NCBI GenBank assembly: GCA_900321715.1
Contig: ONXC01000014.1
Location: forward strand, 1 to 64,000
Length of the DNA: 64,000 bases
Direction: 5' to 3'
Source: an uncultured Bacteroidales bacterium
GTDB taxonomy: Bacteria > Bacteroidota > Bacteroidia > Bacteroidales > UBA932
Part shown: piece by piece, positions 1 through 63,741 of the stretch
Numbering within the stretch: position 1 is the stretch's first letter
Layout of the letters: every line of letters starts with the position of its first letter
The notes under the pieces: model-generated
Databases searched by the model: none
Told to the model about the DNA's origin: nothing
Seen by the model: only the letters and a program-made list of their open reading frames with translations
Position numbers and translations under genes: made by a program

Positions 1-196
1 GATTTAATGGATTTAATTGTTTGATAATCGGCATTAGATGCCCGATCGGGTCGGGCATGACACGCAACAGAACGCACTTCACCCGCCCTTAGTATGTGGA
101 TAAGGGGAAATATCGGCCTTATAACTCCCCTAACCTATGAGTCAGAGGCAGTTACGTATCGGCCCTATTTTTCTTTCAGAAAGAGGCTGTTTTTCC
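1..196. other. Intergenic leader region, no gene seen
   Basis: No credible reading frame is visible. There is one compact hairpin (arms ATGCCCGA and TCGGGCAT, 38-58) and two copies of the genome-wide motif ATCGGCC at 112 and 158. A short minus-strand frame over 176-412 crosses the promoter and the small gene below and is not believed. Confidence 0.5.
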
Positions 197-228
197 CTTG
201 CTTTTGTAGTGCAAAAAAGGTATCTTTG
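197..228 (+). promoter_or_regulatory. Bacteroidota-type promoter for the small peptide/lipoprotein pair
   Basis: TATCTTTG at 221-228 fits the Bacteroidota -7 consensus TAnnTTTG. CTTG at 197-200, 20 bases upstream, is an acceptable -33 element. It would give a leader of about 125 bases before the small gene at 359. Confidence 0.55.
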
Positions 229-281
229 TACTTCGGTTAGTAAAGACGGTAGCAATGACATTGTTTAACACTCCATATGTA

Positions 282-306
282 TGCCCCCAGAAGTCATTCT
301 GGGGCA
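282..306 (+). promoter_or_regulatory. Leader hairpin, possible attenuator
   Basis: TGCCCCCAGAA at 282-292 pairs with TTCTGGGGCA at 297-306 around a four-base loop. A T-rich stretch follows (TTGTCTTTATT). It lies between the promoter and the first start codon of the operon, so it could act as a weak terminator or attenuator. Function is inferred. Confidence 0.4.
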
Positions 307-358
307 TTGTCTTTATTAACTCCGAGCATAGGGCAACAACACAAAAGTCCAATACAAA

Positions 359-529
359 ATGAAAGAAAAACAACTTTACGAGGCCCCCTGGGCCCAAGCC
401 TTCGTAGTACAACCCGAAGGTATGATTTGCACCAGCGATCCGCTGGAAATCCTGGCTACAACCGACCCCTTGCAGGGATTTGAGGAACAGGCTATTATTG
501 ATGACGCATCAAGCGCCCTGTGGTGGTAA
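359..529 (+). CDS. Small protein (56 aa) preceding a fimbrillin-type lipoprotein
   Basis: A complete frame begins with ATG at 359 and ends with TAA at 527. The protein starts MKEKQLYEAPWAQAF and ends in two tryptophans (SSALWW). It has no signal peptide, membrane segment or cysteine motif. Its shape is that of short Bacteroidales proteins often seen beside surface lipoprotein genes: a charged start, a Y-x-x-P motif, hydrophobic residues, a short 'CTS' segment and an acidic tail. The lipoprotein gene starts 20 bases downstream, so the two are probably one transcript from the promoter at 197-228. A second such gene sits at 4840-5001 in the same relation to another fimbrillin lipoprotein. Function unknown. 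The recurrence makes it likely to be real although it is short. Confidence 0.7.
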   Translation: MKEKQLYEAPWAQAFVVQPEGMICTSDPLEILATTDPLQGFEEQAIIDDASSALWW

Positions 530-549
530 TCTTAAAAACTGAATGCCTT

Positions 550-2565
550 ATGAAAAAGTCTTTATATGCCATCGCAGCCCTCGCTCTTGTTCTTCTCGGC
601 TGCTCCAAGAAAGAATTCAATGAGACCTTCGCTCCCGGAGACGTTGTAACCGTCCGCGCTCAGGTCAATGACACTTACACCAAAGTCGCCGCAGACAATG
701 CAGGTACTTTCTCCTGGCAGGACGGTGACAAGATCACTATCCTCAACAACGAGAATGCTCCATTCGAGTTCGCTACGGTAAAGGGCGGCACTGACGCTGC
801 TTTTACAAGCACTTCATTCAGCGGAGAACTTGGCACTATCGCCTACTATCCTGCAAGCGCTAGCCACACCAATACTGTGTTCAACCTCGCTTCCGAGTTT
901 GAATGGGTAGAGAATGCCAGCAATATGCCTATGATCGGCACGGTCAACACTTCTGAAAAGAAGGTTTCCTTCAAGACCGCCGGCGCCGCAATCAAACTCG
1001 TTTGCTTCAATGTCCCCGCCGATGCCCGCAAACTTGTTGTGAGTTCAGACAGCAAGAACCTTTCCGGTGCTATGACCATCTCAACTGGTTCAATCCAGAC
1101 CGCTGATGGATCAAATGCCGTTTCCATTACTTTTGCAGCTGGCCACCCTACAAATATGGTCTTCTACATCCCCGTTCCCACCGGTGAACTTGGAAAACTC
1201 ACCTTCGTTATGAAGGACGACTCCGATGTAGCCGTTTCCCATGCACAGACCACCAAGGGTCCAATCACTATGACCCGTCAGCACATTGTTGCCGCCCCGG
1301 CACTGAACTGCAGTCCTTATGATCTTCTTCTTCTTGAAACGTTCGATGCCCCTGGCGATAAGACTGAGACAGTCTCAGCATATAACAGCGCTAAGGCCGG
1401 TCAGACAGTCTATTCAGGTGCTATCATTAACTATTCTATTGGTTCAAACACTAATACGAAAGTATATCAGAATGAAAATGAAGAAGGCGGGACCAATCAA
1501 TCAAATTTTGCTGGTGGCGCCGAACCTGGAGAATTATTCCTCGCAAAAAAGGCTAGCTCAAATAATGGAGAGTTTATCATTTCTGGTATTCCCGCAAAGG
1601 TTTCCAGTTCATTGAAATTAACCTTCAAGAGCAATAAGAACTCAACAACCTACGTAGATGTTACTTCTGACACTGGTATTACATTATCTGCGCAACAAGC
1701 GAGTGAGACTTCACCTTATACCATTTCCTATGATATTACAGTTTCAGGTAGTTACGCATCAGAAACATTCTCTCTAACATTCTCTAACGGTAGCTCATCT
1801 AATACTAGAATTGATGATATTATTATTACCACTACCCAAGAATCATTTACAGCACCTACTCTCACACCTGATGAAGTTGAATTGGTAATTGATAAGGATG
1901 GAGGTGATGACAGTACAAGTTTCACCTACTCAAATCGCATAGATGAAACACCCGTAGTAGCTATTGTTGAAGCTGGGGCCAGCTGGCTTACCGCTGTCAT
2001 CACCGGCACATACCCCTCATATACTCTGACAGTATCAGCCGCAAAGAACACTGGTGAAGCCCGTTCTGCAAAAGTAACGTTACGTGCTACAGGAGTATCA
2101 AAAGAAATCAATGTATCCCAAGCATCAAGCATAGTTTCTACTCCTGATCCTATTGTAATCGACTATAACCTTGCAGGTTTCCCCTCTTCATATGGGACGG
2201 CAAATAAGTTCACTGCTTATACTTTTGGCGGATACAAATATATGATACAACAGGTCTACAAGAATGGAGAGAAGATGCAATGGCGCGCTGCTGGCAATTC
2301 CAACGGAACAGGTATTATCTACAATTCAACTGCTATGCCTGCCGGCATCACCTCAATAGTTATTGTATTTGACGCCAGCGATAGTAATAAGAATCATACC
2401 GTCCAGATTGGAGATGCGGAGAATCCTTCTTCTGCGACTTCCATCACTCCTTCCAAATCAGGTACTACCTATACTTTTGCAGGTGATGGTACATCAAAAT
2501 ATTTCGTAATTACAAATGGAAGCGGAGCAGGCTATGTATCATCCATAACCATTAACTTCGAGTAA
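550..2565 (+). CDS. Surface lipoprotein with fimbrillin-like and BACON domains
   Basis: 671 aa. The start at 550 is chosen because it gives a clean lipoprotein signal (MKKSLYAIAALALVLLGC, cysteine 18); an upstream in-frame ATG at 520 would overlap the small gene. Residues about 20-255 resemble the N-terminal part of Bacteroidales fimbrillin/Mfa-type proteins, with a typical 'FSWQDGDKI' segment. Residues about 256-425 form a beta-rich region. A BACON domain covers about 434-530 (ASWL core, ending in 'INVSQASS'). The last 135 residues are another beta-rich, possibly ligand-binding, domain. Such proteins are exported, lipidated and displayed on the outer membrane. From about 1320 onward base composition turns AT-richer than upstream, which suggests a mosaic gene. 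The exact ligand is unknown. Confidence 0.85.
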   Translation: MKKSLYAIAALALVLLGCSKKEFNETFAPGDVVTVRAQVNDTYTKVAADNAGTFSWQDGDKITILNNENAPFEFATVKGGTDAAFTSTSFSGELGTIAYYPASASHTNTVFNLASEFEWVENASNMPMIGTVNTSEKKVSFKTAGAAIKLVCFNVPADARKLVVSSDSKNLSGAMTISTGSIQTADGSNAVSITFAAGHPTNMVFYIPVPTGELGKLTFVMKDDSDVAVSHAQTTKGPITMTRQHIVAAPALNCSPYDLLLLETFDAPGDKTETVSAYNSAKAGQTVYSGAIINYSIGSNTNTKVYQNENEEGGTNQSNFAGGAEPGELFLAKKASSNNGEFIISGIPAKVSSSLKLTFKSNKNSTTYVDVTSDTGITLSAQQASETSPYTISYDITVSGSYASETFSLTFSNGSSSNTRIDDIIITTTQESFTAPTLTPDEVELVIDKDGGDDSTSFTYSNRIDETPVVAIVEAGASWLTAVITGTYPSYTLTVSAAKNTGEARSAKVTLRATGVSKEINVSQASSIVSTPDPIVIDYNLAGFPSSYGTANKFTAYTFGGYKYMIQQVYKNGEKMQWRAAGNSNGTGIIYNSTAMPAGITSIVIVFDASDSNKNHTVQIGDAENPSSATSITPSKSGTTYTFAGDGTSKYFVITNGSGAGYVSSITINFE

Positions 2566-2586
2566 TCGTTTAAAACTCTATTCTTA

Positions 2587-2615
2587 AGCGGGCAGAGAAA
2601 TCTGTCCGCTTTTTT
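2587..2615 (+). terminator. Intrinsic terminator after the lipoprotein gene
   Basis: AGCGGGCAGA and TCTGTCCGCT pair around GAAA and are followed by a run of T at 2611-2615. It lies about 20 bases after the stop codon. Confidence 0.85.
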
Positions 2616-2714
2616 GTGCTTCGTGTGGCCGTGGGCGCTTTCGGGTTACAAGCCACCCTTGGTATACCAGCGGCACGAAAATTCCCCCGCTCTTTGATTG
2701 AATAGTTCTAAATG

Positions 2715-2753
2715 GAAAAAGAGCATACCTCCAGAATGAAGGTCTGCTCTTTT
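2715..2753. terminator. Hairpin with A and T flanks, possible bidirectional terminator
   Basis: GAAAAAGAGCA at 2715-2725 pairs with TGCTCTTTT at 2745-2753, with an inner ACCT/AGGT pairing. The A-rich left and T-rich right flanks allow termination in either direction. Confidence 0.55.
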
Positions 2754-3194
2754 ATGCATAACAGAACCCTTAGGCTCTAACAATCTTGATGCAAATGTAA
2801 GAATACTTTCTGAAATAACAAGTATTTAAGATTCATTATTTGTAATTAACCTTGGTTTCCAGAAAGCATCCATCCTGATTATTGGCCATTTTTCAGGATG
2901 GGAAGGTGAAAAACTGGTTTCCATCCTGGAAAAGGGGGTGTTTTCATGGACGGTAAGGCCGTTTTCTGGTTACCGGCCCCCTGGAGGACAGCCAGGGACA
3001 CAAAAATGGCGTTTTTCGTGTTACACGCTGCCTTCGGGGACAGCCACGGACACAAAAATGGCGTTTTTTGTGTCGCCAGCCGGCCCCTGGCGGCTAAAAT
3101 CCTCAGCAACAGCACATTACAAAATTCTGATTGAGCGAAATGCACAACCAGAATTGTATAAGGAGTTGATAATCAGCCCGAAAGCCACCAGGCG
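2754..3194. repeat. Intergenic region with tandem CACAAAAATGGCG hairpin repeats
   Basis: No gene is believed here; short frames on both strands are by-products of the repeats. Two copies of a palindromic unit start at 2997 and 3049, a 52-base period. Each has the core GACACAAAAATGGCG followed by a T-rich arm that mirrors it (TTTTTTGTGTC in the second copy). GC-rich flanks of the type CCAGCCGGCCCCTGG surround them. A third copy is at about 9415-9470 behind the M13 peptidase gene. This looks like a REP/BIME-style extragenic palindrome family. Confidence 0.7.
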
Positions 3195-4853
3195 TTATTC
3201 TTTTACGCAGCGGAGAGGGAGGCCCTGGTCACGGACAAAGCCCTCAAAGTCTACATCATCAGGTTCCCCTTCATTATAGTTGATAACCAAACCTGAGGCA
3301 TTTTCCCCATAAACATGTCTAGTCCAATATGAACGATGGTTATAGTCAAAAACAACACTTAAATCATCACCATCACTTTCATTTCTAGCAAGTAAGCCCA
3401 GTTCCGGGAATCCGTTTGCAGAAGTATAAAAAGAAACAGGTTCACTTGTTATTTCCGCCTCTGAAGGTACCCTGTATCCTTGAGGGCAGGGATCCCATAC
3501 CGTCTTTCGGCCACTGTCGCCACCCCAGAGCGTTGGATCCTGATTGATGGTACTGCCCGTACAAAACCAATCCCACGCACTTGCTGCGCCTTTGATGAAA
3601 TGACTGGGATACTGAATTGAGTTTTCAAGGCCATGAAAGCCATTACCAAGCTGCATAGCATCTGAAAGCAGGGGATCTTTCCTTCCCCACTGGAAGTAGC
3701 AGTTGTCTCCAAGAGGCGGAAGAAACTTATTTCCGTTAATGGTTGTTTCTGACATCTCATTTTTCACCCAGATGAGAAAAGACCACAGGATGGTTCCTTT
3801 AGAATCTTTTATGGCAATAAGGGAACTGCCTTCAGAACTGCTACTTACCGTGAGGGTTGTTCCGGAAAGAGTACACGTTGCACTTCCCCATAATTTCTTA
3901 GCACTCTTTGGAGTGCCATACGGAGCACGCGTAAGAGTCCGCTGCCAGTTTTCGCCAATCATTTTTGGAGTCACATCAATCTCTACCTCTTTACCAACTG
4001 TCGTACAGAATGTATTTTGTGATCCATAATAGATAGCTGTTTTCCATGTCATTGCGTTGGCAAGAGATGCTACCTCCCTTATAATGCCCCTGGAAAAGGA
4101 CTTCGTGGATGAAACAGTTCCAATCTGGCTTCCGGCATAAGATGTCAACGTAACGCCATCTGTAAAAGTGCAGGGTAGTGAAAGAATATAATACCAGGAA
4201 TCAGGATTGAAAGTGCTGCCATCAGGCGCCGTAAGTGTTATTTCCTCTTCTGTTCCTTCTCCAGCTACCTCCGGGATACCTGCTGAAAAAGAGAAGCTGA
4301 ACGTTCCGGCTATCTTTTCTCCATTATTACCCTTAAGAGTGACTGCGGTAACGCCCCGGCGGCCGGTTTTGAAGCGTATTCCTGAATAAAGGTGCTTGCA
4401 GGTAACGGTTGCCCCGGTCCCGCGGCCGGCGACAATAGCGGCAGCAGGGTCAAAACCACCGGCTACGGCAGTCTGGACCGCTGGAAGTGTAGCCGTAATT
4501 ACATTACCGCTTTTCCCTGTGCTGGCACCTTGTGGATACACCAGCACCCAGGTTCCAAGATTTGCGGGAGCGGTGCCTTCAAACGTGGTGGATAGAGCCG
4601 CAGAAGCGTTCTGGCCAGTGAATTCATAGGCTGTCTCCCCTACCCATACGTCCACAACCTCACCTGCCGACCACAGAACCTTTGCCTTATTCTCGTGCGC
4701 TGGATCTGCAACGATTTGCACCTTGGTAGCGCCCTCGATTCCCGCAGTTATGGTATGCTTCACCAACCCGCCCGCTTCACGGGATTCCTCCTTGGTGCAG
4801 GCAACAAGGCAGAGTGCCAGAACGGGAAGGAAAATGTGCCTAGAACGGATCAT
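3195..4853 (-). CDS. Lipoprotein with fimbrillin-like N-terminus and FISUMP-type C-terminus
   Basis: 552 aa. The start is the ATG at 4853 (MIRSRHIFLPVLALCLVAC, lipobox cysteine 19). The longer frame from 4868 would need a TTG start. The N-terminal half has the 'LWSAGEVVDVW' pattern of Bacteroidales fimbrillin-family proteins. The C-terminal part (about 373-552) matches the Fibrobacter-succinogenes-major-paralogous type domain: 'CYFQWGRKDP', 'TVWDPCPQGYRVPS' and a closing 'LRCVKE'. It is probably exported and lipidated at the cell surface. It is last in an operon with the genes at 5003-7453 and 4840-5001, and its start overlaps the end of the small gene by 14 bases, which implies translational coupling. 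Ligand unknown. Confidence 0.85.
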   Translation of the reverse strand: MIRSRHIFLPVLALCLVACTKEESREAGGLVKHTITAGIEGATKVQIVADPAHENKAKVLWSAGEVVDVWVGETAYEFTGQNASAALSTTFEGTAPANLGTWVLVYPQGASTGKSGNVITATLPAVQTAVAGGFDPAAAIVAGRGTGATVTCKHLYSGIRFKTGRRGVTAVTLKGNNGEKIAGTFSFSFSAGIPEVAGEGTEEEITLTAPDGSTFNPDSWYYILSLPCTFTDGVTLTSYAGSQIGTVSSTKSFSRGIIREVASLANAMTWKTAIYYGSQNTFCTTVGKEVEIDVTPKMIGENWQRTLTRAPYGTPKSAKKLWGSATCTLSGTTLTVSSSSEGSSLIAIKDSKGTILWSFLIWVKNEMSETTINGNKFLPPLGDNCYFQWGRKDPLLSDAMQLGNGFHGLENSIQYPSHFIKGAASAWDWFCTGSTINQDPTLWGGDSGRKTVWDPCPQGYRVPSEAEITSEPVSFYTSANGFPELGLLARNESDGDDLSVVFDYNHRSYWTRHVYGENASGLVINYNEGEPDDVDFEGFVRDQGLPLRCVKE

Positions 4854-5001
4854 AAGTGATATCTTCAATTACTACGTCAGTACCGGAAGGAGCTTCCAAG
4901 GTATAAAGGACAAACAGCGATGTAGCAATAAGTTCCCTGTGCTGCAACTGGATTGTTGCGCACAGGGGTGACTCATAGGGAATCTTTCCGGCGAGAACCA
5001 T
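4840..5001 (-). CDS. Small protein (53 aa) coupled to the downstream fimbrillin lipoprotein
   Basis: ATG at 5001, TAG at 4840. The protein begins MVLAGKIPYESPLCATIQL and ends ITYDPF. It contains a 'RELIATS' segment and an acidic C-terminal part. It lacks a signal peptide or membrane segment. It begins one base after the stop codon of the upstream lipoprotein gene and ends 14 bases inside the next one, so all three genes form one operon. Its plan (Y-x-x-P near the start, a short 'ATS' segment, acidic tail) resembles the small protein at 359-529, also placed directly before a fimbrillin lipoprotein. Function unknown; a chaperone, regulator or secreted peptide are all possible. Confidence 0.75.
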   Translation of the reverse strand: MVLAGKIPYESPLCATIQLQHRELIATSLFVLYTLEAPSGTDVVIEDITYDPF

Positions 5002-5002
5002 G

Positions 5003-7453
5003 CTACTTTGCAAGTTGAGTACTGATTTCCTTGGAGAAATTCTGTATGATGTTGTTGTGATCCTGGAAGGTCAGATACTGCACTGAGGCAGGCTGACCGC
5101 CGTTTGCTGCGCCATTGACGCGGCTGGCAATATCCTTTACCTGGCTTGCGTTGATAAATTCTATGCGGGGAATATAGCGCAAAGTGAACGTTTTCCAGGT
5201 GGCTTCGCTCTCTTCGGGGCCCTGGCTCTTGAAAGAAATCCTTACAGAAACAACCATATCAGGGATATCAGGATCAGTGATCACGCGCCTTTCATCGTCG
5301 AAGGGCAGGAAAATCTGGGGATCGGCCACATACTGAACCTCGTCCACCGTGGCATAGTTTGCCTCAGGATTGCTGTAGAAAAGGGAACTTCCGTAAAAAC
5401 GGCGCCAATAAGTATGTGAAGTGGTTTCTCTTTTGACGGTCTGGGATCCTTTGATCTCCTGCTCACTGAGCCTGCTGCCGATGGTCTCAGGATAGGTATT
5501 CTCATACTTGATTTTGAACAAGGAATTGTTGTATGGCATCTTGAAGATTCTGAAAGGCGCCTTGGCGGCTCCGGGGACAGAGCCGGTGGATACTTTCTGG
5601 TCTTTGGAAGAAGTAGAGAGGGTGATGGTATTGTATTTCAGGGATGTAGCGTCGCGGAACCAGTCCGTGTATCCGGACTTGGAGCCCGGGTAAACACCGT
5701 AACTTACGCCAACGCTGCATTCCTCGGGATGGCCGAAGAGGTCTTCATTGATGACAATCTGGCCGATAGATGTGGGGTCGAAGAAGGAGATCAGGCGCAT
5801 ACCCAGCTGGTGAGGCGACTGGGAGATGTCGTATTCCGCTGCTTTCTGGCCATTATGATTCCACGCCATTTCAGTCCTGGAGTAGTATGTAACAACCGCT
5901 TTGTTAGCCCAGAAAGCATCTTTCACAATATACACTACAGGGTCTTGGGATATGTTCCAAAGGCCACGCCCGATCTGACCGGCATCGCCGTCAGCCTTGG
6001 TAAGAGCGTCAAACTTGAAATATTCCCTGGGAATGGTCACTTCAGGGACAGAGTGGGAGCGCTGGGACTTGATGAGGCCTTGCGTTGAGATAGTGGCGTC
6101 CAGGCCCAAATCCAGCTTGGCGTTTAATTCTCCCAGTTTTGACGCATCCGATGTGCCGTTCTTACCATATTCCTTAGCAAGATTGCCGGCAAGACTGGCT
6201 GCACATCCAACACCCAGGGATACCCACCCCCAGCCGGGGGCTTCAGCCGGGTTTCCCGTAATCTGCTCAAGGAAAAATTTATTCATCAAAAAACCGCTGG
6301 CACTGCCGCCGAGACTGGAGACAATTTTTCCCCCTTCAGTGGCCGAGGCTGCCTTCAGAGCATTCAAATTCATACTCCCCTTGAGATCTCCGCTGATGGT
6401 ACCGCCAAGAACGGAATTCAGGATGACATTCTGAGAGTCAAACAGGTGCAGGCCGATAGTAATTGGTTTGTAATCGTCAAAGAACGACCTTCCGCGCATT
6501 GCCGAAAGATCCACGTCAAAGGCCCACCAGCCTTGTTCCGGAACAACACCAAGGTTTTCTCCAACTTTCTCGGTGAAAGCGGTGGTCCGGTACATGCCCG
6601 CCTTCTGAAGAAACACCGCATTGGCGGGGTCTTCCGGGTTCAGGTTGTGATTCAGCGGAACTGCAAACTGCGTGGAGTTGTGCTGAGCCTGACTGCCCTG
6701 GAAACGCACGTACCAAAGGTGGTCGTTGGCACCAGAAGGAGGGAGAAGTTCCTCAGGCCAGTAATAGAACACACGCATAACGCCAAGCTGGGTATTGTAC
6801 AGGCCGAAATAGTTCAGATGCACACATTCCGGAGTCTTGATGCCGGTAGTGTTGAATACCAGGACCCATTCGTCCTTGTGCCGCAACATATTATCCATCT
6901 CTCCCTCAGGAAGATTGTTATGAGTTCCGGGGGTTGTGGTATTCCAAGGCAGCGGAAATTCCTTGACCGTGCAATTGTACTTACCGTTTGCGTTCTCGTA
7001 TTTGGTTACCAGCGTGACCGTCTGGGCCGACCACCACTCCTTTTCCAAAGCCGTGTTCAATGACGGTGATTGACCGTCATTGAGACCTGTGGGAAGGCCG
7101 GAACGCTGGGTCAGGGTAAGGTTGGCAGTGGCGCCGCTTTTCATCTTGATCTGCAGTTGGGCGGTTCTTATTCCGCTTAGGGATGGATCGGCCTTTACAG
7201 GGACGGAAAGCGCCATGCTGCCGCCGACGAGCCCCTCTTCCCGCGTTATTTCGCCCACCCAGGACGGAAGGTTCTGGACCTCTGCAATCTGGGTGTCTCC
7301 TATGCCGTCAAGCACAGTGGTAGCCACATAGTTGTCGTTGGTAACGTTAAGGCTGTATTCCAGAGTGCGGAAATCTACCCCCTCCCGCTCCTTATTGCAG
7401 GAAAACGGTATAAGGATAAGCGAAAGCGCAAATACGGAGATGATTCTTTTCAT
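5003..7453 (-). CDS. Large lipoprotein with N-terminal BACON-like domain
   Basis: 816 aa. The ATG at 7453 gives MKRIISVFALSLILIPFSC, a lipoprotein signal with cysteine 19; an in-frame ATG 12 codons upstream only adds a polar tail. Residues about 25-115 look like a BACON-type beta-sandwich ('LPSWVGEI', closing 'ANLTLTQRSG'). The remaining 700 residues are not recognised. They include a Gly/Ala-rich stretch around residues 370-440 ('GGTISGDLKGSMNLNALK', 'LGGSASGFLMNKFF') that could insert in or cross a membrane, then beta-rich sequence. It is the first gene of the operon that continues into 4840-5001 and 3195-4853. Probably a surface protein with a binding or pore-like role; the role is not established. 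Confidence 0.75.
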   Translation of the reverse strand: MKRIISVFALSLILIPFSCNKEREGVDFRTLEYSLNVTNDNYVATTVLDGIGDTQIAEVQNLPSWVGEITREEGLVGGSMALSVPVKADPSLSGIRTAQLQIKMKSGATANLTLTQRSGLPTGLNDGQSPSLNTALEKEWWSAQTVTLVTKYENANGKYNCTVKEFPLPWNTTTPGTHNNLPEGEMDNMLRHKDEWVLVFNTTGIKTPECVHLNYFGLYNTQLGVMRVFYYWPEELLPPSGANDHLWYVRFQGSQAQHNSTQFAVPLNHNLNPEDPANAVFLQKAGMYRTTAFTEKVGENLGVVPEQGWWAFDVDLSAMRGRSFFDDYKPITIGLHLFDSQNVILNSVLGGTISGDLKGSMNLNALKAASATEGGKIVSSLGGSASGFLMNKFFLEQITGNPAEAPGWGWVSLGVGCAASLAGNLAKEYGKNGTSDASKLGELNAKLDLGLDATISTQGLIKSQRSHSVPEVTIPREYFKFDALTKADGDAGQIGRGLWNISQDPVVYIVKDAFWANKAVVTYYSRTEMAWNHNGQKAAEYDISQSPHQLGMRLISFFDPTSIGQIVINEDLFGHPEECSVGVSYGVYPGSKSGYTDWFRDATSLKYNTITLSTSSKDQKVSTGSVPGAAKAPFRIFKMPYNNSLFKIKYENTYPETIGSRLSEQEIKGSQTVKRETTSHTYWRRFYGSSLFYSNPEANYATVDEVQYVADPQIFLPFDDERRVITDPDIPDMVVSVRISFKSQGPEESEATWKTFTLRYIPRIEFINASQVKDIASRVNGAANGGQPASVQYLTFQDHNNIIQNFSKEISTQLAK

Positions 7454-7542
7454 AACTGTAGTATTATGATTAATTGCGTTTATTCTCAATAAGTTTGCAA
7501 TTTAGCGTTTTTGAGATTAAAATGCAAGAAAACGTGGCCGAA

Positions 7543-15941: not shown

Positions 15942-16172
15942 GTCGCAGGTGGGGTGGCTAAATGTCGCAGGTCAGACGCCGAACCGTCGCAGGTCTGCAA
16001 AATCGGCCGGACCTGCGACGGTTTTTTGCCCCTGAGGCCGATTTGCGTCGCAGGTGACAGCAAAAATGCAGACCTGCGACACTTTGGCCCGGGACCTGCG
16101 ACACTTTACTCCGGGACCTGTGACACTTTACTCCGGGACCTGCGACACTTTACTCCGGGACCTGCGACACTT
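15942..16172. repeat. Array of ten GTCGCAGGT boxes at about 22-bp spacing
   Basis: GTCGCAGGT occurs forward at 15942, 15964, 15986 and 16047. Its reverse complement ACCTGCGAC occurs at 16011, 16072, 16093, 16137 and 16159, with a one-base variant at 16115. Most steps are 21, 22 or 25 bases, near two helical turns. The right part is a 22-base tandem repeat (CCGGGACCTGCGACACTTTA plus CT, four units from 16091). Two forward/reverse pairs (15986/16011 and 16047/16072) can form hairpins. The spacing suggests a row of protein-binding sites, or a simple expanded repeat. Confidence 0.8.
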
Positions 16173-19077: not shown

Positions 19078-20091
<1,014 letters not shown>

Positions 20092-28745: not shown

Positions 28746-28751
28746 AAAAGT

Positions 28752-31658: not shown

Positions 31659-31661
31659 AAG

Positions 31662-33188: not shown

Positions 33189-33194
33189 AAAGAA

Positions 33195-34217: not shown

Positions 34218-34223
34218 AGAAAG

Positions 34224-40766: not shown

Positions 40767-41647
40767 CTAGGCTGAGGTTTTTGGGAACTGGAACATCGCA
40801 GGGCGTGCCCATCATAGCATGCCAGTGCCCGGTGTGTAAAAGCCAGGATCCCCGGGACAAGAGGTTCCGGTCATCGGCCTTTGTGGAGTATGAGGGGATG
40901 AATATCCTCATTGACGCCGGGCCGGATTTCCGCAGCCAGATGCTCCAGGCCGATATCCGTCACCTTGACGCCATCCTCCTCACCCACAACCACAAGGACC
41001 ACACCGGCGGCCTTGACGACGTCCGCTCCTTTAACTATATAGACCGCAAGGCGGCAGAGATCTACTGCGAAGAAAGGGTCCTGAGGAGTCTTAAGAACGA
41101 CTACGCCTACGCCTTTGAGGAGGAGAAATATCCCGGTGCGCCGGAGTGGCACGTCCATCTCATAGATGAGAGGCCTTTCCGCGTGGATTCCCTGGAGCAT
41201 TCCGGAGAACTGGTGTGGGTTCATGACAAGGGATATTTCTACAGGCAGCCTGACGGCAGCCTGGCTCATACCGGAGAGATAGTCTCAGAGGCCTCCCACA
41301 TGAACCCCAACGTGATTCCAATCCGCGGCCTTCACGGCCAGATGCCGGTGCTGGGATTCCGTTTTGGGAACATAGCCTACATAACGGACATGAGCCACAT
41401 AGAGGACTCCGAACTTGAAAAGCTCCGCGGGCTTAAGCACCTCACCCTGAATACGGTGAGTTATCATCCGCACCACTCCCACTTCTCCCTTCAGGAGGCC
41501 GTGGAACTGGCGCAGAGGATTGGCGCAGAGCACACCTGGCTTACGCACCTGAGCCACACCTTCCCCACCCACGGGGAGTTTGTGAGAGAGCTCAGACAAT
41601 ATGGAAACATTGAGCCTGCTTACGACGGGCTTGTGATAGAAGACTGA
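40763..41647 (+). CDS. Metallo-beta-lactamase-fold hydrolase (PhnP-like)
   Basis: 294 aa. 'LRFLGTGTSQGVPIIACQCPVC' at the start is typical of the PhnP/lipoate-associated group, followed by the metal-binding 'LTHNHKDHTGGLDDVR' and further histidines in 'YITDMSHIED' and 'LTHLSHTFPTHGEF'. Such enzymes hydrolyse cyclic phosphodiesters or related esters. The exact substrate is not predictable. It overlaps mtaB by 4 bases and the next gene by 1 base. Confidence 0.9.
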   Translation: MTRLRFLGTGTSQGVPIIACQCPVCKSQDPRDKRFRSSAFVEYEGMNILIDAGPDFRSQMLQADIRHLDAILLTHNHKDHTGGLDDVRSFNYIDRKAAEIYCEERVLRSLKNDYAYAFEEEKYPGAPEWHVHLIDERPFRVDSLEHSGELVWVHDKGYFYRQPDGSLAHTGEIVSEASHMNPNVIPIRGLHGQMPVLGFRFGNIAYITDMSHIEDSELEKLRGLKHLTLNTVSYHPHHSHFSLQEAVELAQRIGAEHTWLTHLSHTFPTHGEFVRELRQYGNIEPAYDGLVIED

Positions 41648-43071
41648 TGAAAGAGAAAGTAATAATAGTTGGCGGCGGCATTTCCGGCCTTACTGCGGGT
41701 ATCTATGCGCAGAGGTCCGGATTTGACGTCCTGATACTTGAAAAATGCGCCACGCCCGGCGGGGTTTCCACCTGCTGGAAGCGCAAGGGATACCTGTTTG
41801 AAGGCGGTGTCCACTGGCTCAACGGCTCTGGAAGCCACCTGGACCTCCACAAGGTATGGAAGGAGGTTGGCGCGCTGCAGGAGAACAACCCCATCTATTT
41901 CAAGGACCCCGTGTATGTCCTCAAGAACGGGAAGGCCGATCTTGCGATTTACAGGGATGCGGAGCGCACTCTCAAGGAATTATCGGCCTATTCCCCCCGT
42001 GACAGGAAGGTCCTGAGGAGCATTTTCCGCGATGTCAGGATGTTCCGCTACTTCCAGTCACCCGTGGAAGGAGAGACCTCTATCCTTGACTATATCCGCA
42101 TGTTCCCGGCCATACTCATCACCCCGCGCCTTTGGATGCAGTCCATTTCCTTCTACCTTTCACGCATCAAGGATGATGACGTCCGCACCCTCCTTGAGGC
42201 CATTGTGGCGCCGGTGAACAACGCCATGACGTTTGCATATACCCTCAGCGGCTTTTTCACCGGAGACAGCGGCTACCCCAGCGGAGGTTCCCTCAGGATG
42301 GCCCTCAATATGGCCGATTCTTTTGTGAAGGCAGGTGGTGAGATCCGCTACAATACGGCCGTGGAGAAGGTTGTGGACGGAGGCGTCTATGTAAATGGAG
42401 AGCTTATGAAGGCCGATGCCGTGATTGTCACGGTTGATGCCCGTACAGCCATTGACAAACTCTTTGAAAAGCCCATCCAGGACAGCTGGGCACGCAGGAT
42501 GAGGAAACTTCTTGTCACCACCCAGACCGTGTTTGTGGGCGTTGGCGTAGAGGCCGACCTTAATAATTATCCCAAGTCCATGGTATTCAAGGTCCCGTTC
42601 AAGGACGGCGGAGTGGACCTCCCCTTCTTTGTGGTGAGCAATTACGCCCGTGACCATTATTCTCCGGAGGGTTGCACCACCCTTACTGGCCTATTCCCCG
42701 GCTATTCATACGATTGGTGGAAGGCTGCAAAGGAAGACGGCACCTATGATGCACAAAAGGAAGCCGTGGCCAGGAGGTTTATCGGCATTCTTGAAGAGCA
42801 GATCCCTGAGACTAAAGGCAAGATTGCCGTTGTAGATGTGGCTACGCCCCTCACATATCAGCGCTACTGCGACACCTATGAGGGAAGTTACATGAGCGAA
42901 TGGATGCCTTTCACCCTCACCACAAACGCCCCCAACCGCTACCGCCGCGGCCTGTACTTTGCCGGCCAGCGCACGGCGTATTCCGGAGGCCTTCCCCCGG
43001 CAGTGATAAGCGGCCGGCTTGCGGTACGCCTCCTCTGCAAGGACTTCGGACATAGTTTCACCAAAGAATAA
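41647..43071 (+). CDS. Phytoene-desaturase/carotene-isomerase-like FAD oxidoreductase
   Basis: 474 aa. N-terminal dinucleotide fold 'VIIVGGGISGLTAGIYAQRSG' and 'LILEKCATPGGVSTCW', then 'FEGGVHWLNGSGSHLDLHKVW', and the C-terminal FAD motif 'GLYFAGQRTAYSGGLPPAVISGR'. This subgroup in gut Bacteroidales is often annotated as phytoene desaturase family. No phytoene synthase is nearby, so a carotenoid role is doubtful, and saturation or isomerisation of another polyprenoid or lipid is possible. Confidence 0.85.
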   Translation: MKEKVIIVGGGISGLTAGIYAQRSGFDVLILEKCATPGGVSTCWKRKGYLFEGGVHWLNGSGSHLDLHKVWKEVGALQENNPIYFKDPVYVLKNGKADLAIYRDAERTLKELSAYSPRDRKVLRSIFRDVRMFRYFQSPVEGETSILDYIRMFPAILITPRLWMQSISFYLSRIKDDDVRTLLEAIVAPVNNAMTFAYTLSGFFTGDSGYPSGGSLRMALNMADSFVKAGGEIRYNTAVEKVVDGGVYVNGELMKADAVIVTVDARTAIDKLFEKPIQDSWARRMRKLLVTTQTVFVGVGVEADLNNYPKSMVFKVPFKDGGVDLPFFVVSNYARDHYSPEGCTTLTGLFPGYSYDWWKAAKEDGTYDAQKEAVARRFIGILEEQIPETKGKIAVVDVATPLTYQRYCDTYEGSYMSEWMPFTLTTNAPNRYRRGLYFAGQRTAYSGGLPPAVISGRLAVRLLCKDFGHSFTKE

Positions 43072-43085
43072 TAAATCATTATCAT

Positions 43086-44033
43086 ATGGCACCTGACGTT
43101 ATTAAAACCATTGACAGCATCAACGTGACGCTGAATGCCGGCGGGATGAACACAATCAACATCATCCTTGCCTTTGTGATGTACGGCGTTGCGCTGGGCA
43201 TTAAACCAGGCATCTTCGTAGAAGTTTTCAAAAAGCCAAAGTCCGTGCTTCTTGGAATGCTGAGCCAGCTTGTGCTGCTGCCTGCATTCACCTGTGGCCT
43301 GGCAATCCTCATGACCGGATGGATCTCTCCCATGATGGCCATGGGTATGATCCTCGTGGCTGCCTGCCCGGGCGGAAACATCTCCAATTTCATGAGTTCC
43401 CTGGGAAAGGCCAATATTGAGCTTTCCGTGAGCCTCACGGCCATCTCTACGGCCCTGGCTGTGTTCATGACGCCCTTCAACTTCTGGTGCTGGGGCAGCA
43501 TCTACATGCACTTCGCAGGTGTCCACGGAGACATCCCCACCCTTGTGATTCCCCTCTGGGACGTCTTCAAGACCATCTTCATTCTCCTTGGAATTCCGCT
43601 TATCCTTGGCATACTCACAAGCCAGTTCCTTCCCAAGGTTGCAGCCTTCCTCAAAAAGCCCCTGCAGTGGCTATCAATCGTGATTTTTGTGGCAATGGTG
43701 GTGTTGTCCTTCTCCGGTAACATAGATGCGTTCCTCCTGAGCGTGAAGTACATCTTCCTGGTGGTGCTCATCCATAACCTCCTGGCACTTACCCTTGGCT
43801 TCAGCGTTGCAACTGTTGCAAAACTCCCCTACCGAGACCGCCGCACCCTTACCATTGAAACCGGTATCCAGAACAGCGGCCTGGGCCTTGCCCTTATGCT
43901 GGGAACAAGCCTCTTCGCAAACTTCCCCCCTCACGGAGGAATGCTTGTCATCACCGCCTGGTGGGGTATATGGCACATCATCTCCGGCCTTACCGTAGCA
44001 ACTATCTTCAACAGGACCAGGAAAGATGCGTGA
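43086..44033 (+). CDS. Bile acid:sodium symporter family (BASS) transporter
   Basis: 315 aa with eight to nine hydrophobic helices. Conserved 'ACPGGNISNFMSSLGKANIELSVSLTAIST' region (quoted in part: ACPGGNISNFMSSLGKANIE) contains the sodium-site crossing motif, and 'TIETGIQNSGLGLALMLGTS' is the second. Family members import bile acids, pantothenate or other organic anions with sodium. The substrate here is unknown. It starts 14 bases after the oxidoreductase gene and overlaps the acyltransferase gene by 8 bases. Confidence 0.92.
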   Translation: MAPDVIKTIDSINVTLNAGGMNTINIILAFVMYGVALGIKPGIFVEVFKKPKSVLLGMLSQLVLLPAFTCGLAILMTGWISPMMAMGMILVAACPGGNISNFMSSLGKANIELSVSLTAISTALAVFMTPFNFWCWGSIYMHFAGVHGDIPTLVIPLWDVFKTIFILLGIPLILGILTSQFLPKVAAFLKKPLQWLSIVIFVAMVVLSFSGNIDAFLLSVKYIFLVVLIHNLLALTLGFSVATVAKLPYRDRRTLTIETGIQNSGLGLALMLGTSLFANFPPHGGMLVITAWWGIWHIISGLTVATIFNRTRKDA

Positions 44034-45054
44034 ATTCTGGGATAAAGACTGGCTGTACAGCACTCTAAGGCGTTACGTGGATTTCACCACGCGCCGCAGT
44101 TACCGCCGCCTCACCGTGGAGGGGAAGCTCCCTCCGGATAATGACGGCATAGCCACAATCTATGCTCCAAACCACACCAACACGCTTATGGACGCGCTGG
44201 TGGTGCTGCAGCTAAGGCACGGCGGTACCCTCTTTGGCGCCAGGGCCGATGTCTTCCGTAAGCCCGCCATAGCCCGCATCCTTCGTTTCCTCAAGATGCT
44301 CCCGCTTGCGCGTCACAACCGTGACAGGGCTGAAGAAGTGGCCCATAACCGCATCGCATTCGATGAGATTGACCGTGCACTTGCCCACGGACTCCCCTTC
44401 TGCCTTTTCCCTGAAGGGCGCCACAGACCCATGCACTCCCTTCTGCCCATACGCCGCGGCATAGCCACAATGGCCTTCAGAAGCGCTACCCAGCGCCCCA
44501 CACGGATTGTTCCTATCGGCATAGATTATTCCGACTGGTTCCACTACAGGGGTGAAGCAGTTGTACGCATCGGTGAACCCTTCAACGTGAATGAGTTCGC
44601 CGCCGGAATCCCTCAGGGCATCCCCGACAGCGAGCGTGATGCTCTCCTCCAGGAAGAGATGTACCGCCGCCTTTCTTCCCTCATCTTCTTCATTCCGGAT
44701 GATGAGCATTATGAGGAGACCCTGGCCGATATCCGCGCTTCCCACCCCGCTCCCGCCAGGTGGCCCCGCATCCTCCTCGCAGCCGTCACCTTCCCCCTGT
44801 GGCTGGCGTTTGCGGTACTGTCGGCCCCGCTGTGGGTTCTTGCAGAGTTCCTCTGCCGCAGGATGGTCAAGGACCCTGCTTTCCAGAACACCACCCGCTT
44901 TGGCGTGAGGCTCATACTCTGGCCCATCTGGGCGCTGATCTGGCTCATTATCGGCCTATGTACAATGCCCTGGTGGGGTGCCCTTCTGCTTGTTGCAGCC
45001 TACCTCCCCTCCTACAGTCTCTTCTACGACTGGCTTAACCTGGCCCGTAACTAG
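44026..45054 (+). CDS. PlsC-type glycerol-phosphate acyltransferase
   Basis: 342 aa. Acyltransferase motifs 'IYAPNHTNTLMDALVV' (HX4D) and 'LPFCLFPEGRHRPM' (binding motif), with 'PTRIVPIGIDYSD'. The C-terminal third has two or three hydrophobic segments (about 245-275 and 295-335), longer than classic PlsC. It likely acylates lysophosphatidate or a related lipid at the inner membrane. Last gene of the plus-strand run; a strong hairpin follows. Confidence 0.88.
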   Translation: MREFWDKDWLYSTLRRYVDFTTRRSYRRLTVEGKLPPDNDGIATIYAPNHTNTLMDALVVLQLRHGGTLFGARADVFRKPAIARILRFLKMLPLARHNRDRAEEVAHNRIAFDEIDRALAHGLPFCLFPEGRHRPMHSLLPIRRGIATMAFRSATQRPTRIVPIGIDYSDWFHYRGEAVVRIGEPFNVNEFAAGIPQGIPDSERDALLQEEMYRRLSSLIFFIPDDEHYEETLADIRASHPAPARWPRILLAAVTFPLWLAFAVLSAPLWVLAEFLCRRMVKDPAFQNTTRFGVRLILWPIWALIWLIIGLCTMPWWGALLLVAAYLPSYSLFYDWLNLARN

Positions 45055-56240: not shown

Positions 56241-56394
56241 GCCGCCGGAATCGATGGCTGAAATCAACACGTTCGATTGAACCGGGCGCATCTCAGGCCG
56301 TGGATGGCGGGCCCTCCTTGAAGGGATACCTGAATCGGCCGGACCCCAAATCTTATCCAATAAGATTTTCTGACTGGATACGGCGGCTTTTTTT
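56241..56394 (+). ncRNA. ssrS: Probable 6S RNA
   Basis: A 150-base non-coding stretch starts at the zapA stop. It is closed by GCCGCCG (56241-56247) pairing with CGGCGGC (56381-56387), followed by seven T residues that end transcription. Inside, further helices are possible (ATCGATGG region, GGGCCCTCC-TTGAAGGG, TCTTATC/GATAAG-type pairing at 56351-56366). Length, a closing stem with terminator, and location next to zapA agree with 6S RNA, which sequesters housekeeping RNA polymerase. Rfam confirmation was not possible. Confidence 0.6.
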
Positions 56395-56437
56395 CCATAT
56401 CTGTTGCCTGTTAGCAAGCACATAACACACAATATAT

Positions 56438-57958: not shown

Positions 57959-57960
57959 TT

Positions 57961-59706: not shown

Positions 59707-59712
59707 ATGCTG

Positions 59713-61035: not shown

Positions 61036-61053
61036 ACGTACATTTTTAGTTTA

Positions 61054-61061
61054 CAAATATA
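61054..61061 (-). promoter_or_regulatory. -7 box of ffh
   Basis: TATATTTG on the minus strand, 18 bases before the ATG. No clear -33. Confidence 0.5.
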
Positions 61062-61176
61062 GCAATTTCTGCGTTTATAAGAAAGAAGAAACGTTTCCCG
61101 CGTTGTTTCACGTGAATCCCAAAAAACATCTCGGAAAGTTTTTACGTTTCAAGGGCTCTGTTCCAATAAAGGGCTT

Positions 61177-61184
61177 TACCTTTG
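61177..61184 (+). promoter_or_regulatory. -7 box of the DUF4493 lipoprotein gene
   Basis: TACCTTTG 16 bases before the ATG at 61201. No clear -33. Confidence 0.5.
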
Positions 61185-61200
61185 GCAAAACGCTTGAGAT

Positions 61201-62292
61201 ATGGAAAAACTATTGAAATGGATGGCTATGATCCCGCTGGTGGCGGGGATCGCCGCATGCGATGATTTTGGAAAATTCCCATCGGCCGACACCCACGGGG
61301 AGCTTCAATGGGAGATTGACAGGGAGTCCGTTGCAAAAGCCGGGGCTCAGCTTCCGGATATCAACGACTTCCTCCTTACCATTACTGACAGTAAGGGTGT
61401 AACCCTGTATGACGGTCCTTATGGAGACTCCCCTGCCTCTCTCACGGTTCCGGCCGGGAGCTATACAATAAGCGTAGTCTCCGGGCAGTTCACTTCCCCC
61501 GCCTTTGCGCACCCCGTATACGGAGATGAGGAGGTGGTGATAATAAAGGCCGGGGAAAGCGCCACCGTGAACCTGAACTGCACCCTCCTCAACTGCGGCA
61601 TAAGGCTGAGGATCGCCTCTGATTTCCTCACCAGCTTCCCGGGCGGAGTGATGTATGTGAAACAGGGAGCGGCCAAACTGATGTATGCCTACATGGAGGA
61701 CAGGATAGCATATTTCAAACCGGGAGAGATTGCAGTTGTCCTCTATGACGAAGGCAAGGAGGAGACCCTTTTCACCCGCACACTGGAGCCACGTCAAATC
61801 CTTACTGTGAGCATATCGGCCCCCGGAAAGGCCGATGGCGGAGCTTCGTCCGTGAGGGTGTCTCTTGACACCAGCAAGACCTGGCTTTCGGAGAACTGGG
61901 TAATAGGCGGGGAGAATTCCGGCGGCGGCCAGGGCGGAGGATCGGTTCCGGAAGCCTGCTCGGTGGCCGAGGCCCGTGAAAAGACCGGTCAGAAAGACGT
62001 CTGGGTGTATGGATATATAGTCGGAGGAGACCTCACCACATCTGCAACGGGAGAGGTAAAGACATCCGGAATCACAAAGGCAACACACCTTGCCATGGCC
62101 GACCGCTCAACTATCAGGGACAAATCGGCCTGCATTGCCGTGGAACTTCCGGCAGGTAAGGTGCGTGACGCCCTGAACCTTGTGGCTCACCCGGACCTTA
62201 TAGGGACAAGGGTGTACGTGAAAGGAGAGATCGCAGAGAAATACTTTGGCACCGTAGGGCTCAAAGGGACCAGTGACTATGTGATGAAATAG
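61201..62292 (+). CDS. DUF4493/DUF6359-type lipoprotein
   Basis: 363 aa. The signal MEKLLKWMAMIPLVAGIAAC has the lipobox cysteine at 20. Residues about 30-225 match DUF4493 ('DFLLTITDSKGVTLYDG', 'SLTVPAGSYTISVVSG'). After a Gly-rich linker ('GGENSGGGQGGGS', about 238-250), residues about 252-363 match DUF6359, an OB-fold-like domain ('TGQKDVWVYGYIVGG', 'GTRVYVKGEIAEKYFG'). It is likely a surface-exposed binding protein; ligand unknown. Confidence 0.85.
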   Translation: MEKLLKWMAMIPLVAGIAACDDFGKFPSADTHGELQWEIDRESVAKAGAQLPDINDFLLTITDSKGVTLYDGPYGDSPASLTVPAGSYTISVVSGQFTSPAFAHPVYGDEEVVIIKAGESATVNLNCTLLNCGIRLRIASDFLTSFPGGVMYVKQGAAKLMYAYMEDRIAYFKPGEIAVVLYDEGKEETLFTRTLEPRQILTVSISAPGKADGGASSVRVSLDTSKTWLSENWVIGGENSGGGQGGGSVPEACSVAEAREKTGQKDVWVYGYIVGGDLTTSATGEVKTSGITKATHLAMADRSTIRDKSACIAVELPAGKVRDALNLVAHPDLIGTRVYVKGEIAEKYFGTVGLKGTSDYVMK

Positions 62293-63741
62293 CTAGAACT
62301 CCCTGTAGAACAGGCGCACAAAGGATGAAACTATGATTTCCTTCAGGGTTCTTGAGCCGAGCCATGACTCCAGGGTCCACTCCGTTGCGCCGTCCATAAG
62401 GTCCTCGAAGGCCTTCCTGAAACCAACGGCGGTTTCACGGTCATAGATGAAACTGTTAACCTCGTTGTTGATGGTGAAACTCCTCACGTCCAGATTTGTG
62501 GCGCCCACAACGGAGAGGTAGTCATCGGCCACCATTGTCTTGGAATGGTTGAACTCCCCTTCACTCTCAATGATCCTGACGCCGGCTTCAAGGCATTCCG
62601 TGTAATAACCGCGGTTGAAAGGGCCCAGGATGGGGGTATCCACATTTCTTGGAAGCATTACCCTTACGTCTACACCCCTGAGGGCAGCGGTCTTGAGGGC
62701 AAGGAGGAATGATGCAGGTGGGACAAAGTAGGGAGTCTGGAAATAGACGTATTTACGGGCATTTCCAAGCATCCATTCATATGCCATCTGGGTGGTGGGC
62801 CAGGGAAAATCTGCTTCGTCCGTAACTATTTGGATGGTTTTACCACCCTCAAGAGGCCTTACTGGCTGGAAATAATCCCCGAGAGGCTTCTCCACACTGC
62901 CTTTGCAACTGATCCAGGTGTCAAGGAAAGACGCCTGAAGCCGGGCAACGGCAGGGCCTTCTATCCTAAGATGGGTATCATGCCAAACATTAAAGTAATT
63001 GTCACTGACGTTCATCCCGCCGGTATAGGCTATGCGGCCGTCTATGACCACTATCTTCCGGTGCTGCTGACAGTTGAGCCTCATGATGAAAAGCGGCAGG
63101 CCCTGACTAATGGATGTGTAGCGGACAACCTCAATTCTGGCTTCCTCCATGGGCTTCCAGAATTTGCGTGGAATACGCCTTGCCACAAAACTGTTGAGGA
63201 GGAAACGGACCTCTACTCCCTGACGGGCTTTCTCTATGAGAAGGTCCCGGACCTCCCTTCCAGAGGCGTCATTTCCAAAGCGGAAATACTCCAGATGAAC
63301 GGAATGACGGGCATTCCTTATATCCTCCATAAGGAGTTCCTTCTTGCGTGCGCCTGAGGAAATGACTTCCATTTTATTTCCCACGTAGAGCCGGTTCCCG
63401 TCTCCGCATGCACGGTTGAGACTGGCAAGGGGGCGGAAGGACTCTTCCAGGCCGTCCTCAGGGATACCATCGGGAAAAAGGAGGCCGGCGGCTTCCGGGG
63501 TGATTTCCTCATTCAACCTTCTCCGGGCCTCTCCGTGGATGTAATTCCTGGCCTTCACGGTACGATAATCCTTGCCGAAGATAAGGTACAGGACAAAACC
63601 GACGAGAGGGACAAATAACATGAGAAGCACCCAGGCCATGGCGGTTTCCTGCACCCTCTTGTCCCTCAGGACCATGTAGCATAGTGCCAGACGAAGAATG
63701 GCCGGCAGAAGTACAACAATTATGTTCAGGATACTGCTCAT
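62293..63741 (-). CDS. cls: Cardiolipin synthase
   Basis: 482 aa. The ATG at 63741 (MSSILNIIVVLLPAILRL) is used, as a start at 63762 would lie upstream of the promoter box. Two N-terminal membrane helices (about 5-25 and 36-56) and two phospholipase D motifs, 'HRKIVVIDGRIAYTGGMN' and 'HSKTMVADDYLSVVGATNLD', are present. It condenses two phosphatidylglycerols into cardiolipin at the inner membrane. It ends directly after the stop of the DUF4493 gene, converging. Confidence 0.95.
   Translation of the reverse strand: MSSILNIIVVLLPAILRLALCYMVLRDKRVQETAMAWVLLMLFVPLVGFVLYLIFGKDYRTVKARNYIHGEARRRLNEEITPEAAGLLFPDGIPEDGLEESFRPLASLNRACGDGNRLYVGNKMEVISSGARKKELLMEDIRNARHSVHLEYFRFGNDASGREVRDLLIEKARQGVEVRFLLNSFVARRIPRKFWKPMEEARIEVVRYTSISQGLPLFIMRLNCQQHRKIVVIDGRIAYTGGMNVSDNYFNVWHDTHLRIEGPAVARLQASFLDTWISCKGSVEKPLGDYFQPVRPLEGGKTIQIVTDEADFPWPTTQMAYEWMLGNARKYVYFQTPYFVPPASFLLALKTAALRGVDVRVMLPRNVDTPILGPFNRGYYTECLEAGVRIIESEGEFNHSKTMVADDYLSVVGATNLDVRSFTINNEVNSFIYDRETAVGFRKAFEDLMDGATEWTLESWLGSRTLKEIIVSSFVRLFYREF

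Follow-up and report, generated by a model that had tools for sequence, protein, structure and literature searches.

Why should a single asymmetric word of seven bases, ATCGGCC (GGCCGAT on the opposite strand), recur all along a 64-kb stretch of DNA from an uncultured Bacteroidales bacterium (contig ONXC01000014.1, positions 1 to 64,000; hereafter the window)? Bacteroidales are abundant in the rumen and gut. A first-pass annotation of the window had counted about 113 copies where about 8-10 were expected, and had suggested a DNA uptake or recognition sequence, comparing its density with those of the DNA uptake sequence (DUS) of Neisseria and the uptake signal sequence (USS) of Haemophilus. Our analysis confirmed that the over-representation is real, and the role of ATCGGCC as a recognition sequence is well supported. 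That the word may direct the uptake of self DNA is a reading to which we give about an even chance.

Abundance, orientation and shape of the word

The window contains 114 copies of ATCGGCC, 62 on the plus and 52 on the minus strand, dispersed over positions 112..62530 (the first copy at 112-118, the last at 62524-62530). This is nearly the number first reported, and 100 dinucleotide shuffles of the window gave a mean of only 10.8 +/- 3.3 copies with a maximum of 20. A third-order Markov model predicts 15.5 copies, and among 7-mers with at least 12 copies ATCGGCC ranks first in the window by z-score. The excess is not confined to the window, as the assembly to which it belongs (G000; 2.04 Mb in 29 contigs, 80.6% complete) has 3,279 copies (1,617 and 1,662 by strand), compared with 226 (126 and 100) of the reversed word, which is a rough control only. 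The resulting density of about 1.6 per kb is at or above that of the DUS and USS, as had been claimed, with about 1 per kb given for these in the available part of PMC1626085. Dispersed copies at a density of around 1 per kb, above codon and Markov expectation, are characteristic of uptake sequences.

To gauge the contribution of codon usage, we called genes with a custom script in 203 kb of the same genome and performed 40 within-gene shuffles of synonymous codons. Coding copies numbered 341, compared with a shuffled mean of 52.4 and a maximum of 66, and a further 25 copies were found in 15 kb of intergenic DNA, where Markov models predict 1.7-2.0. The excess was present in several reading frames, with 95 copies read as Ser-Ala (3.3 expected by synonymous shuffling), 151 as Ala-Asp (22.9 expected), 73 as Ile-Gly (22.9 expected), and 19 as Gly-Arg (0.7 expected). 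The argument that codon bias is insufficient, because the word is read as Ser-Ala, Ile-Gly or Ala-Asp and also occurs in spacers, is therefore borne out. The companion claim that TCG and CCGAT-type codons are used mainly inside the motif is not, as only 95 of 287 TCG codons (one third) and 19 of 63 CGA codons lie within it. In a 603-kb sample of the genome (998 copies), the density was 1.70 per kb in coding and 1.14 per kb in intergenic DNA. Codon usage and Markov composition can thus be rejected as the cause, both by the coding counts and by the 114 copies against 15.5 in the window. Neither outcome that the first-pass annotation had named as refuting was observed, as the excess outlasts synonymous shuffling and extends beyond the window. 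Restriction sites are avoided or neutral in the genome of their host, and a restriction site was likewise rejected for a word so strongly enriched, both against its reversed form and after synonymous shuffling.

The two orientations of the word are balanced, and such a lack of orientation bias is also a feature of uptake sequences. Over 20 bins of 10 kb, there were 182 and 172 copies on the two strands, with a heterogeneity chi2 of 20.0 on 20 degrees of freedom, and the strand asymmetry of 10-kb bins was not correlated with GC skew (rho 0.17, p 0.48). Orientation relative to the coding strand was 170/171, and the 603-kb sample gave 507/491 by strand. For the block of plus-strand genes at 27390..45054, where about 16 ATCGGCC and 17 GGCCGAT had been estimated, the count is exactly 16 plus and 17 minus. 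Chi and KOPS (FtsK-orienting polar sequences) are polar relative to replication. Strand polarity of this type was rejected on the basis of the balanced bins, which were used without a located origin, and the missing correlation with GC skew, in agreement with the first-pass annotation.

In the 603-kb sample, neighbouring copies less than 60 bp apart were not commoner than random (88 vs. 95), and 68 of these 88 pairs were opposed. An overlapping palindrome, ATCGGCCGAT, accounts for 20 of the opposed close pairs (6.7 expected), and without it 48 of 68 remain opposed (p 0.0009). Opposed neighbours made up 57 of 89 pairs at 60-120 bp and 131 of 228 at 120-300 bp, and there was no orientation preference beyond 300 bp (206 of 400 opposed at 300-1000 bp). 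Neighbours 4-30 bp apart were rare, with 15 observed and 42 predicted by random spacing, an expectation that ignores coding constraints; this is the scarcity that a protein footprint would give.

Beyond the core, flanking bases corrected for codon phase lean towards A/T at positions -3..-1 and +7..+12, and G is avoided at -1 and +7. The summed flank z over nine positions was 31.4; for comparison, 26 other abundant 7-mers, which gave 52 control profiles, reached 17.1 at most. The pattern also appears in three close relatives (summed z 18.7 over 99 sites, partly shared by descent), and a peptide-matched control agrees in direction at -3..-1, +7, and +9..+12, but not at +8. When the codons of the motif were masked and ATCGGCA was set aside, one-mismatch forms summed to 472, with 479 expected. 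ATCGGCA, which is the word of a neighbouring dialect, is the exception among them (93 vs. 30.6). Perfect copies are therefore in excess and single mismatches are not, which is the strong consensus seen in uptake sequences. A general depletion of one-mismatch forms was considered and dropped, because the unmasked count had overstated it, partly as a codon-pool artefact.

Conservation and dialects among relatives

For comparison with other genomes we used a PPDK_N-domain protein of 968 aa encoded in the window (28752..31658, plus strand) to fetch 80 orthologous loci and build a tree. The nearest of these loci come, by title, from metagenome-assembled genomes of Bacteroidales from the rumen or other ruminant guts. 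Among relatives at 89-91% DNA identity, 81-88% of the window's copies are intact, compared with 49-57% of 7-mers of like composition: 22 of 26 in L021 (Fisher p 0.0018), 30 of 35 in L022 (p 0.0003), 26 of 32 in L023 (p 0.0004), and 30 of 34 in L024 (p 2e-6). At 94% identity, L035 has kept 17 of 18 copies (p 0.013), and at 84% identity L029 has kept 19 of 33, compared with 36% for the controls (p 0.010). These tests are not independent, as the same window sites are shared among relatives, and seven more distant relatives with at most 11 sites each were left out of them. Copies have been gained and lost in both directions between the window and its relatives. Differing sites clearly carry multi-base changes only in L029, where 17 of 20 have at least 2 changes (586 of 1,354 in the comparison set), and the effect was not significant in five other relatives.

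In a 21-row tree of the PPDK_N protein, the motif-bearing species form one clade of ten (support 89/88, not starred). Its sister is a pair, L027 and L058, without the excess; samples of about 19 kb each held 7 copies where 4.2 were expected and 6 where 4.9 were expected. Genome-wide counts of ATCGGC[C/A] across the clade (11 genomes, namely L035 plus those of the ten rows of the tree) were 4,432 in the window's own genome and 5,432, 5,182, 4,385, 4,985, 2,775 (in 1.8 Mb), 4,358, 4,177, 3,744, 4,380, and 3,856 in the others. Outside the clade, we counted 1,214 and 1,364 in the two sisters and 785-1,390 in nine other genomes. Within the clade the word occurs in dialects: ATCGGCC near the window, CATCGGCC with CATCGGCA in L025 and L026, and CATCGGCA with TATCGGCA in L028 and L055, the bases around the core changing between subclades. 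Related dialects that follow the species tree are a further property of uptake sequences. The genome of L028 (G426) and another dialect genome, G293, appear to be one genome, as their contigs C17 are equally long.

We then considered the family more broadly. Across 299 family genomes, the window's own included, none exceeds the latter in copies of ATCGGCC, and of the 62 genomes of its own genus within this draw, 11 have more than 3 times as many copies of ATCGGCC as of the reversed word. Ratios to the reversed word can mislead, as G067, from another genus, shows a 3.2-fold ratio, yet has 8 copies where a third-order Markov model gives 8.2 in 20 kb, and G266 shows a 4.2-fold ratio, but 25 copies against 13.4 under synonymous shuffling. 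The core is also present in two distant genus members, G084 and G275, which have 33 and 39 copies of ATCGGCC (8.6 and 7.8 expected) and 35 and 11 of ATCGGCA (10.6 and 6.5 expected). A small unrooted tree built on a concatenation of four proteins separates both of them from the window's genome; of the other genomes in that tree, G058, G139, and G149 have no excess of ATCGGCC and G072 has a slight excess (14 vs. 8.6). Single samples of 15-20 kb from 14 other genera of the family contained no 7-mer with a z-score above 6.4 and no comparable word, although a weaker word could be missed at this sample size; 5 of the 19 samples were excluded as shorter than 10 kb.

Two neighbouring lineages carry other words. 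The genome of L033 (G421) has 3,049 copies of CATATGC and 35 of the reversed word, and samples from it (L033, L127-L131) showed that CATATG, usually with a neighbouring G or C, reaches 5 times its count under synonymous shuffling (181 vs. 36) and is in excess between genes as well (10 vs. 2-3 expected). The genome of L048 (G422; L048, L132-L135) has a weaker excess of ATATTCC (78 vs. 14.8 under synonymous shuffling) and ATATTCCCG (13 vs. 1.3). It therefore seems that these bacteria have evolved highly iterated words on more than one occasion.

An uptake sequence and its rivals

What, then, maintains the word? Its density, strand balance, presence in genes and spacers, consensus, opposed pairs, dialects, and conservation all point to recognition, and it is this part of the original proposal that stands; uptake is a further step. 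We infer that the word is read by a protein, that the word serves in uptake, and that the receptor is something other than a type IV pilin. As the set of properties is that of the USS and DUS, and as members of the Bacteroidota are transformable, we put at roughly one half the chance that ATCGGC[C/A] is a self-DNA uptake sequence of this kind, independent of a pilus and read by a putative non-pilus receptor. A surface or periplasmic receptor would prefer DNA bearing the word, with a recognised unit that may consist in this clade of the core ATCGGCC and weak AT-leaning flanks, some 16 bp in all. Because of this preference, DNA from lysed kin would be imported preferentially, presumably through the ComEC channel, and then recombined. 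Copies born by point mutation could spread through such biased import, and damaged copies would be replaced.

The first-pass annotation had recommended a search for competence and pilus genes, and the outcome is mixed. A Competence-domain (ComEC-like) gene is present in 24 of 24 genus genomes, 12 of them chosen as motif-richer and 12 as motif-poor. The homologue in the window's genome is intact, with 357 aa (L181:7282-8352), lies between genes for acetate kinase and ApbE, and has the Competence domain as its sole Pfam match. Orthologues of about 350-384 aa are located beside acetate kinase in six relatives, with ApbE as a neighbour in five of the six. The pilus or type II secretion ATPase PF00437 was over the cut-off in only one of the 24 genomes, the motif-poor G041; weak matches below the cut-off occur in 22 of the other 23, including 11 of the 12 motif-richer genomes, with none in the twelfth. 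A link to pili is therefore unsupported in the 12 motif-richer genomes, as judged by the ATPase, the pilins themselves lying outside the search.

Several of our results count against an uptake sequence. As ComEC is found alike in motif-poor relatives, its presence is not diagnostic, and no gene tested tracks the motif, comEC being the sole competence gene examined. With PF00437 over the cut-off only in G041, a pilin-type receptor is not expected. Overall spacing is near random (coefficient of variation 1.06) rather than more even, so the even spacing for which a test had been recommended was not found, while USS and DUS are spaced somewhat more regularly than random (PMC1626085, available part). 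There is also no bias towards gene ends (Kolmogorov-Smirnov p 0.10 and 0.73), unlike the bias reported for the Pasteurellaceae USS (PMC2346458, in part). G293, a dialect genome, hardly shows the flank pattern (summed z 3.7 and 8.1). The flank control with matched peptides comprises 69 sites; it is noisy, and some outer positions also show strong deviations. At about 77% identity, retention was not significantly above controls (9 of 26 in L025, p 0.18; 6 of 17 in L026, p 0.13). Gaps of at least 3.5 kb between copies number 7 where 2.9 are expected, and their contents are mixed.

The main rival to an uptake sequence is another genomic site read by a protein, such as a non-polar Chi-like hotspot, the target of a nucleoid or segregation protein, or a mark by which a nuclease checks self against non-self, with copies kept by selection. 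Conservation, the weak flank, and the few copies 4-30 bp apart are expected for any protein-read site, and the overall dispersal does not contradict such a role. However, strands balanced over all 20 bins are unlike those of polar Chi or KOPS. Segregation sites, for their part, would not usually be as dense as one per 0.6 kb, lie in both genes and spacers, and differ in dialect between sister groups. We regard a chromosomal protein other than a receptor as possible, but rather unlikely.

We consider improbable a mechanism like that of HIP1 (highly iterated palindrome 1) of cyanobacteria, in which a word-recognising methyltransferase and methyl-directed mismatch repair would create and keep the copies (Elhai's model). 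HIPs occur at about 1 per kb, and, in the available part of PMC4390886, all genomes there with highly over-represented sequences have a putative matching methyltransferase, and HIP1-rich genomes without a CGATCG enzyme are also noted. The palindromic word CATATG in the neighbouring genome G421 would fit such a mechanism, but none of five methyltransferase families (PF00145, PF01555, PF02384, PF07669, and PF02086), which we searched by profile in 14 genomes, is over the cut-off in G421, and ATCGGCC itself is not a palindrome. Nor is any one of the five families over the cut-off in all of five clade genomes (G000, G425, G430, G426, and G427), a negative that covers these Pfam families and leaves unknown families and assembly gaps outside; a clade-wide methyltransferase of the five families is thus disfavoured. 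G430 and G426 have only PF02086 over the cut-off, G000 and G425 only PF02384 and PF07669, and G427 merely a partial match to PF00145. The sole gene of G000 over the cut-off (inside L225:14809-17592) contains one copy of ATCGGCC and is surrounded by gaps of 9.5, 3.6, and 4.7 kb, that is, it sits among motif-poor stretches. As a separate observation, the distant genus members G275 and G084 each have a MethyltransfD12 gene some 2 kb from an N6_N4_Mtase gene (L141, L142, L177, and L178), an arrangement like that of a DpnII system; in none of the searched genomes of the window's clade are both over the cut-off.

Neutral bias in base composition, codon pairs, or context-dependent mutation is disfavoured and, we believe, very improbable: the Ala-Asp and Ile-Gly frames do match common codons and supply most of the 52 shuffled copies, but the excess is 6.5-fold over synonymous shuffling, about 13-fold between genes, and 29-fold in the Ser-Ala frame, the sisters L027 and L058 have little or none of it, the samples of 14 other genera hold no comparable word, and the sites are better conserved than matched 7-mers. 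Equally hard to credit is a motif-specific enzyme of very-short-patch-like repair that turns near matches into ATCGGCC, since the masked one-mismatch total equals expectation and the forms that are scarce in G000, though not in motif-lacking relatives (ATCGGTC, 1 vs. 9.4; ATCGACC, 5 vs. 18.9; ATCGCCC, 12 vs. 30.1) span more than one mismatch type.

Returning to the uptake sequence, a broader scenario is that rumen Bacteroidales practise pilus-independent, sequence-specific uptake with a word that has drifted (ATCGGCC, CATCGGC[C/A], ATCGGCA), and with neighbours that use unrelated words (CATATG, ATATTCC); we propose this only tentatively and hold it to be rather doubtful. If true, the phylum Bacteroidota would thereby gain its first uptake "languages", with a receptor of an undescribed kind. 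Our literature search, with most subscription journals outside its scope, did not turn up any earlier description of an uptake sequence from Bacteroidales. Together with its dialects, the 7-bp word offers a handle for finding the receptor and for spotting foreign islands as word deserts, and it may help to introduce DNA into uncultivated Bacteroidales.

Motif-poor stretches and known systems

The window contains regions from which the word is absent, as had been described. Two direct copies on the plus strand (112-118 and 158-164), outside called genes, lie upstream of a motif-free stretch of 5.2 kb (165..5320), whose genes have atypical codon use and include one with a BACON domain (550-2565) and one without a Pfam match (3195-4853). 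There are likewise zero copies in gapA (19078-20076) and pckA (45156-46772). The 17.7-kb block of plus-strand genes at 27390..45054, part of the stretch aligned with relatives, encodes an ELFV dehydrogenase, the PPDK_N-domain protein, an FAD protein, TsaD, TamB, and others. An uptake sequence would be expected to be rare in DNA acquired recently. The 8 genes with the lowest codon scores contain 6 copies in 9.2 kb, compared with 363 in 197.7 kb (p 0.005), whereas the long gaps between copies are mixed in content. Another stretch of the same genome that is poor in ATCGGCC, L225 (C20, about 102.8-122.8 kb), encodes a PDDEXK_2 transposase, an Ig-like-domain protein, a protein matching N6_Mtase/Eco57I, and ordinary-looking genes.

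Two opposed copies 34 bp apart (16002..16042) are located outside called genes, within a separate repeat array. Arrays of short repeats with ACCTGCGAC, often spaced by about 22 bp and present on both strands, occur in the window at 15942-16170, where they extend across the start called for the gene at 16066, and at L003:7000-7120 and L014:17360-19690; the repeat is also present in the distant genus member G084. Some tetranucleotides are strongly under-represented in 203 kb of the genome relative to a first-order model, namely CTAG (116 vs. 1,183), TCGA (358 vs. 1,383), and GATC (936 vs. 1,767).

How does the word compare with systems that have been characterized previously? Chi sites are short, asymmetric, over-represented words that vary between species; ATCGGCC shares these traits, but lacks their strand polarity. 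Cyanobacterial HIP1 and its alternates are also highly iterated short words with lineage-specific alternates at similar density, but they are palindromic and generally accompanied by a fitting methyltransferase (PMC4390886, available part), whereas ATCGGCC has no such symmetry, and our profile searches of five families revealed no methyltransferase common to the clade. Within the Bacteroidota, transformation of Riemerella anatipestifer needs ComEC, DprA, ComF, and RecA, as well as proteins without well-characterised homologues (PMC8459023, in part). R. columbina prefers its own DNA, and the k-mer table in the available part of PMC7965970 lists A-rich words whose role the authors left open.

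Pasteurellaceae and Neisseriaceae are the families with well-described uptake sequences (PMC7811141, in part), and the available parts of PMC3868556 and PMC12616744 name pilus proteins as the known or predicted readers. A word of this type in genomes that show no evident pilus ATPase would imply that the selective exchange of self DNA has re-evolved with other machinery. Like the dialects of the Neisseriaceae DUS, the words of this clade share a core, vary by lineage along the tree, and reach very high copy numbers, kingDUS having 5,918 copies in 2.4 Mb (PMC3630211, in part). Unlike those dialects, they have no known ComP-like receptor, and there are word-free genomes in the same genus. From the Pasteurellaceae USS (AAGTGCGGT / ACAAGCGGT; PMC1626085, in part), ATCGGCC differs in sequence, in phylum, and in its much weaker flank; it has no gene-end bias, the motif-rich genomes yield no pilus ATPase match that passes the cut-off, and its role in uptake is putative. 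For USS and DUS, the same source describes about 1 copy per kb, no significant orientation bias, some closely spaced opposed pairs, and far more perfect than singly mismatched copies. ATCGGCC resembles the Pasteurellaceae USS in its density of about 1-2 copies per kb, lack of orientation bias, occurrence in coding and intergenic DNA, strong consensus, opposed close pairs, AT-leaning flank, and words specific to subclades.

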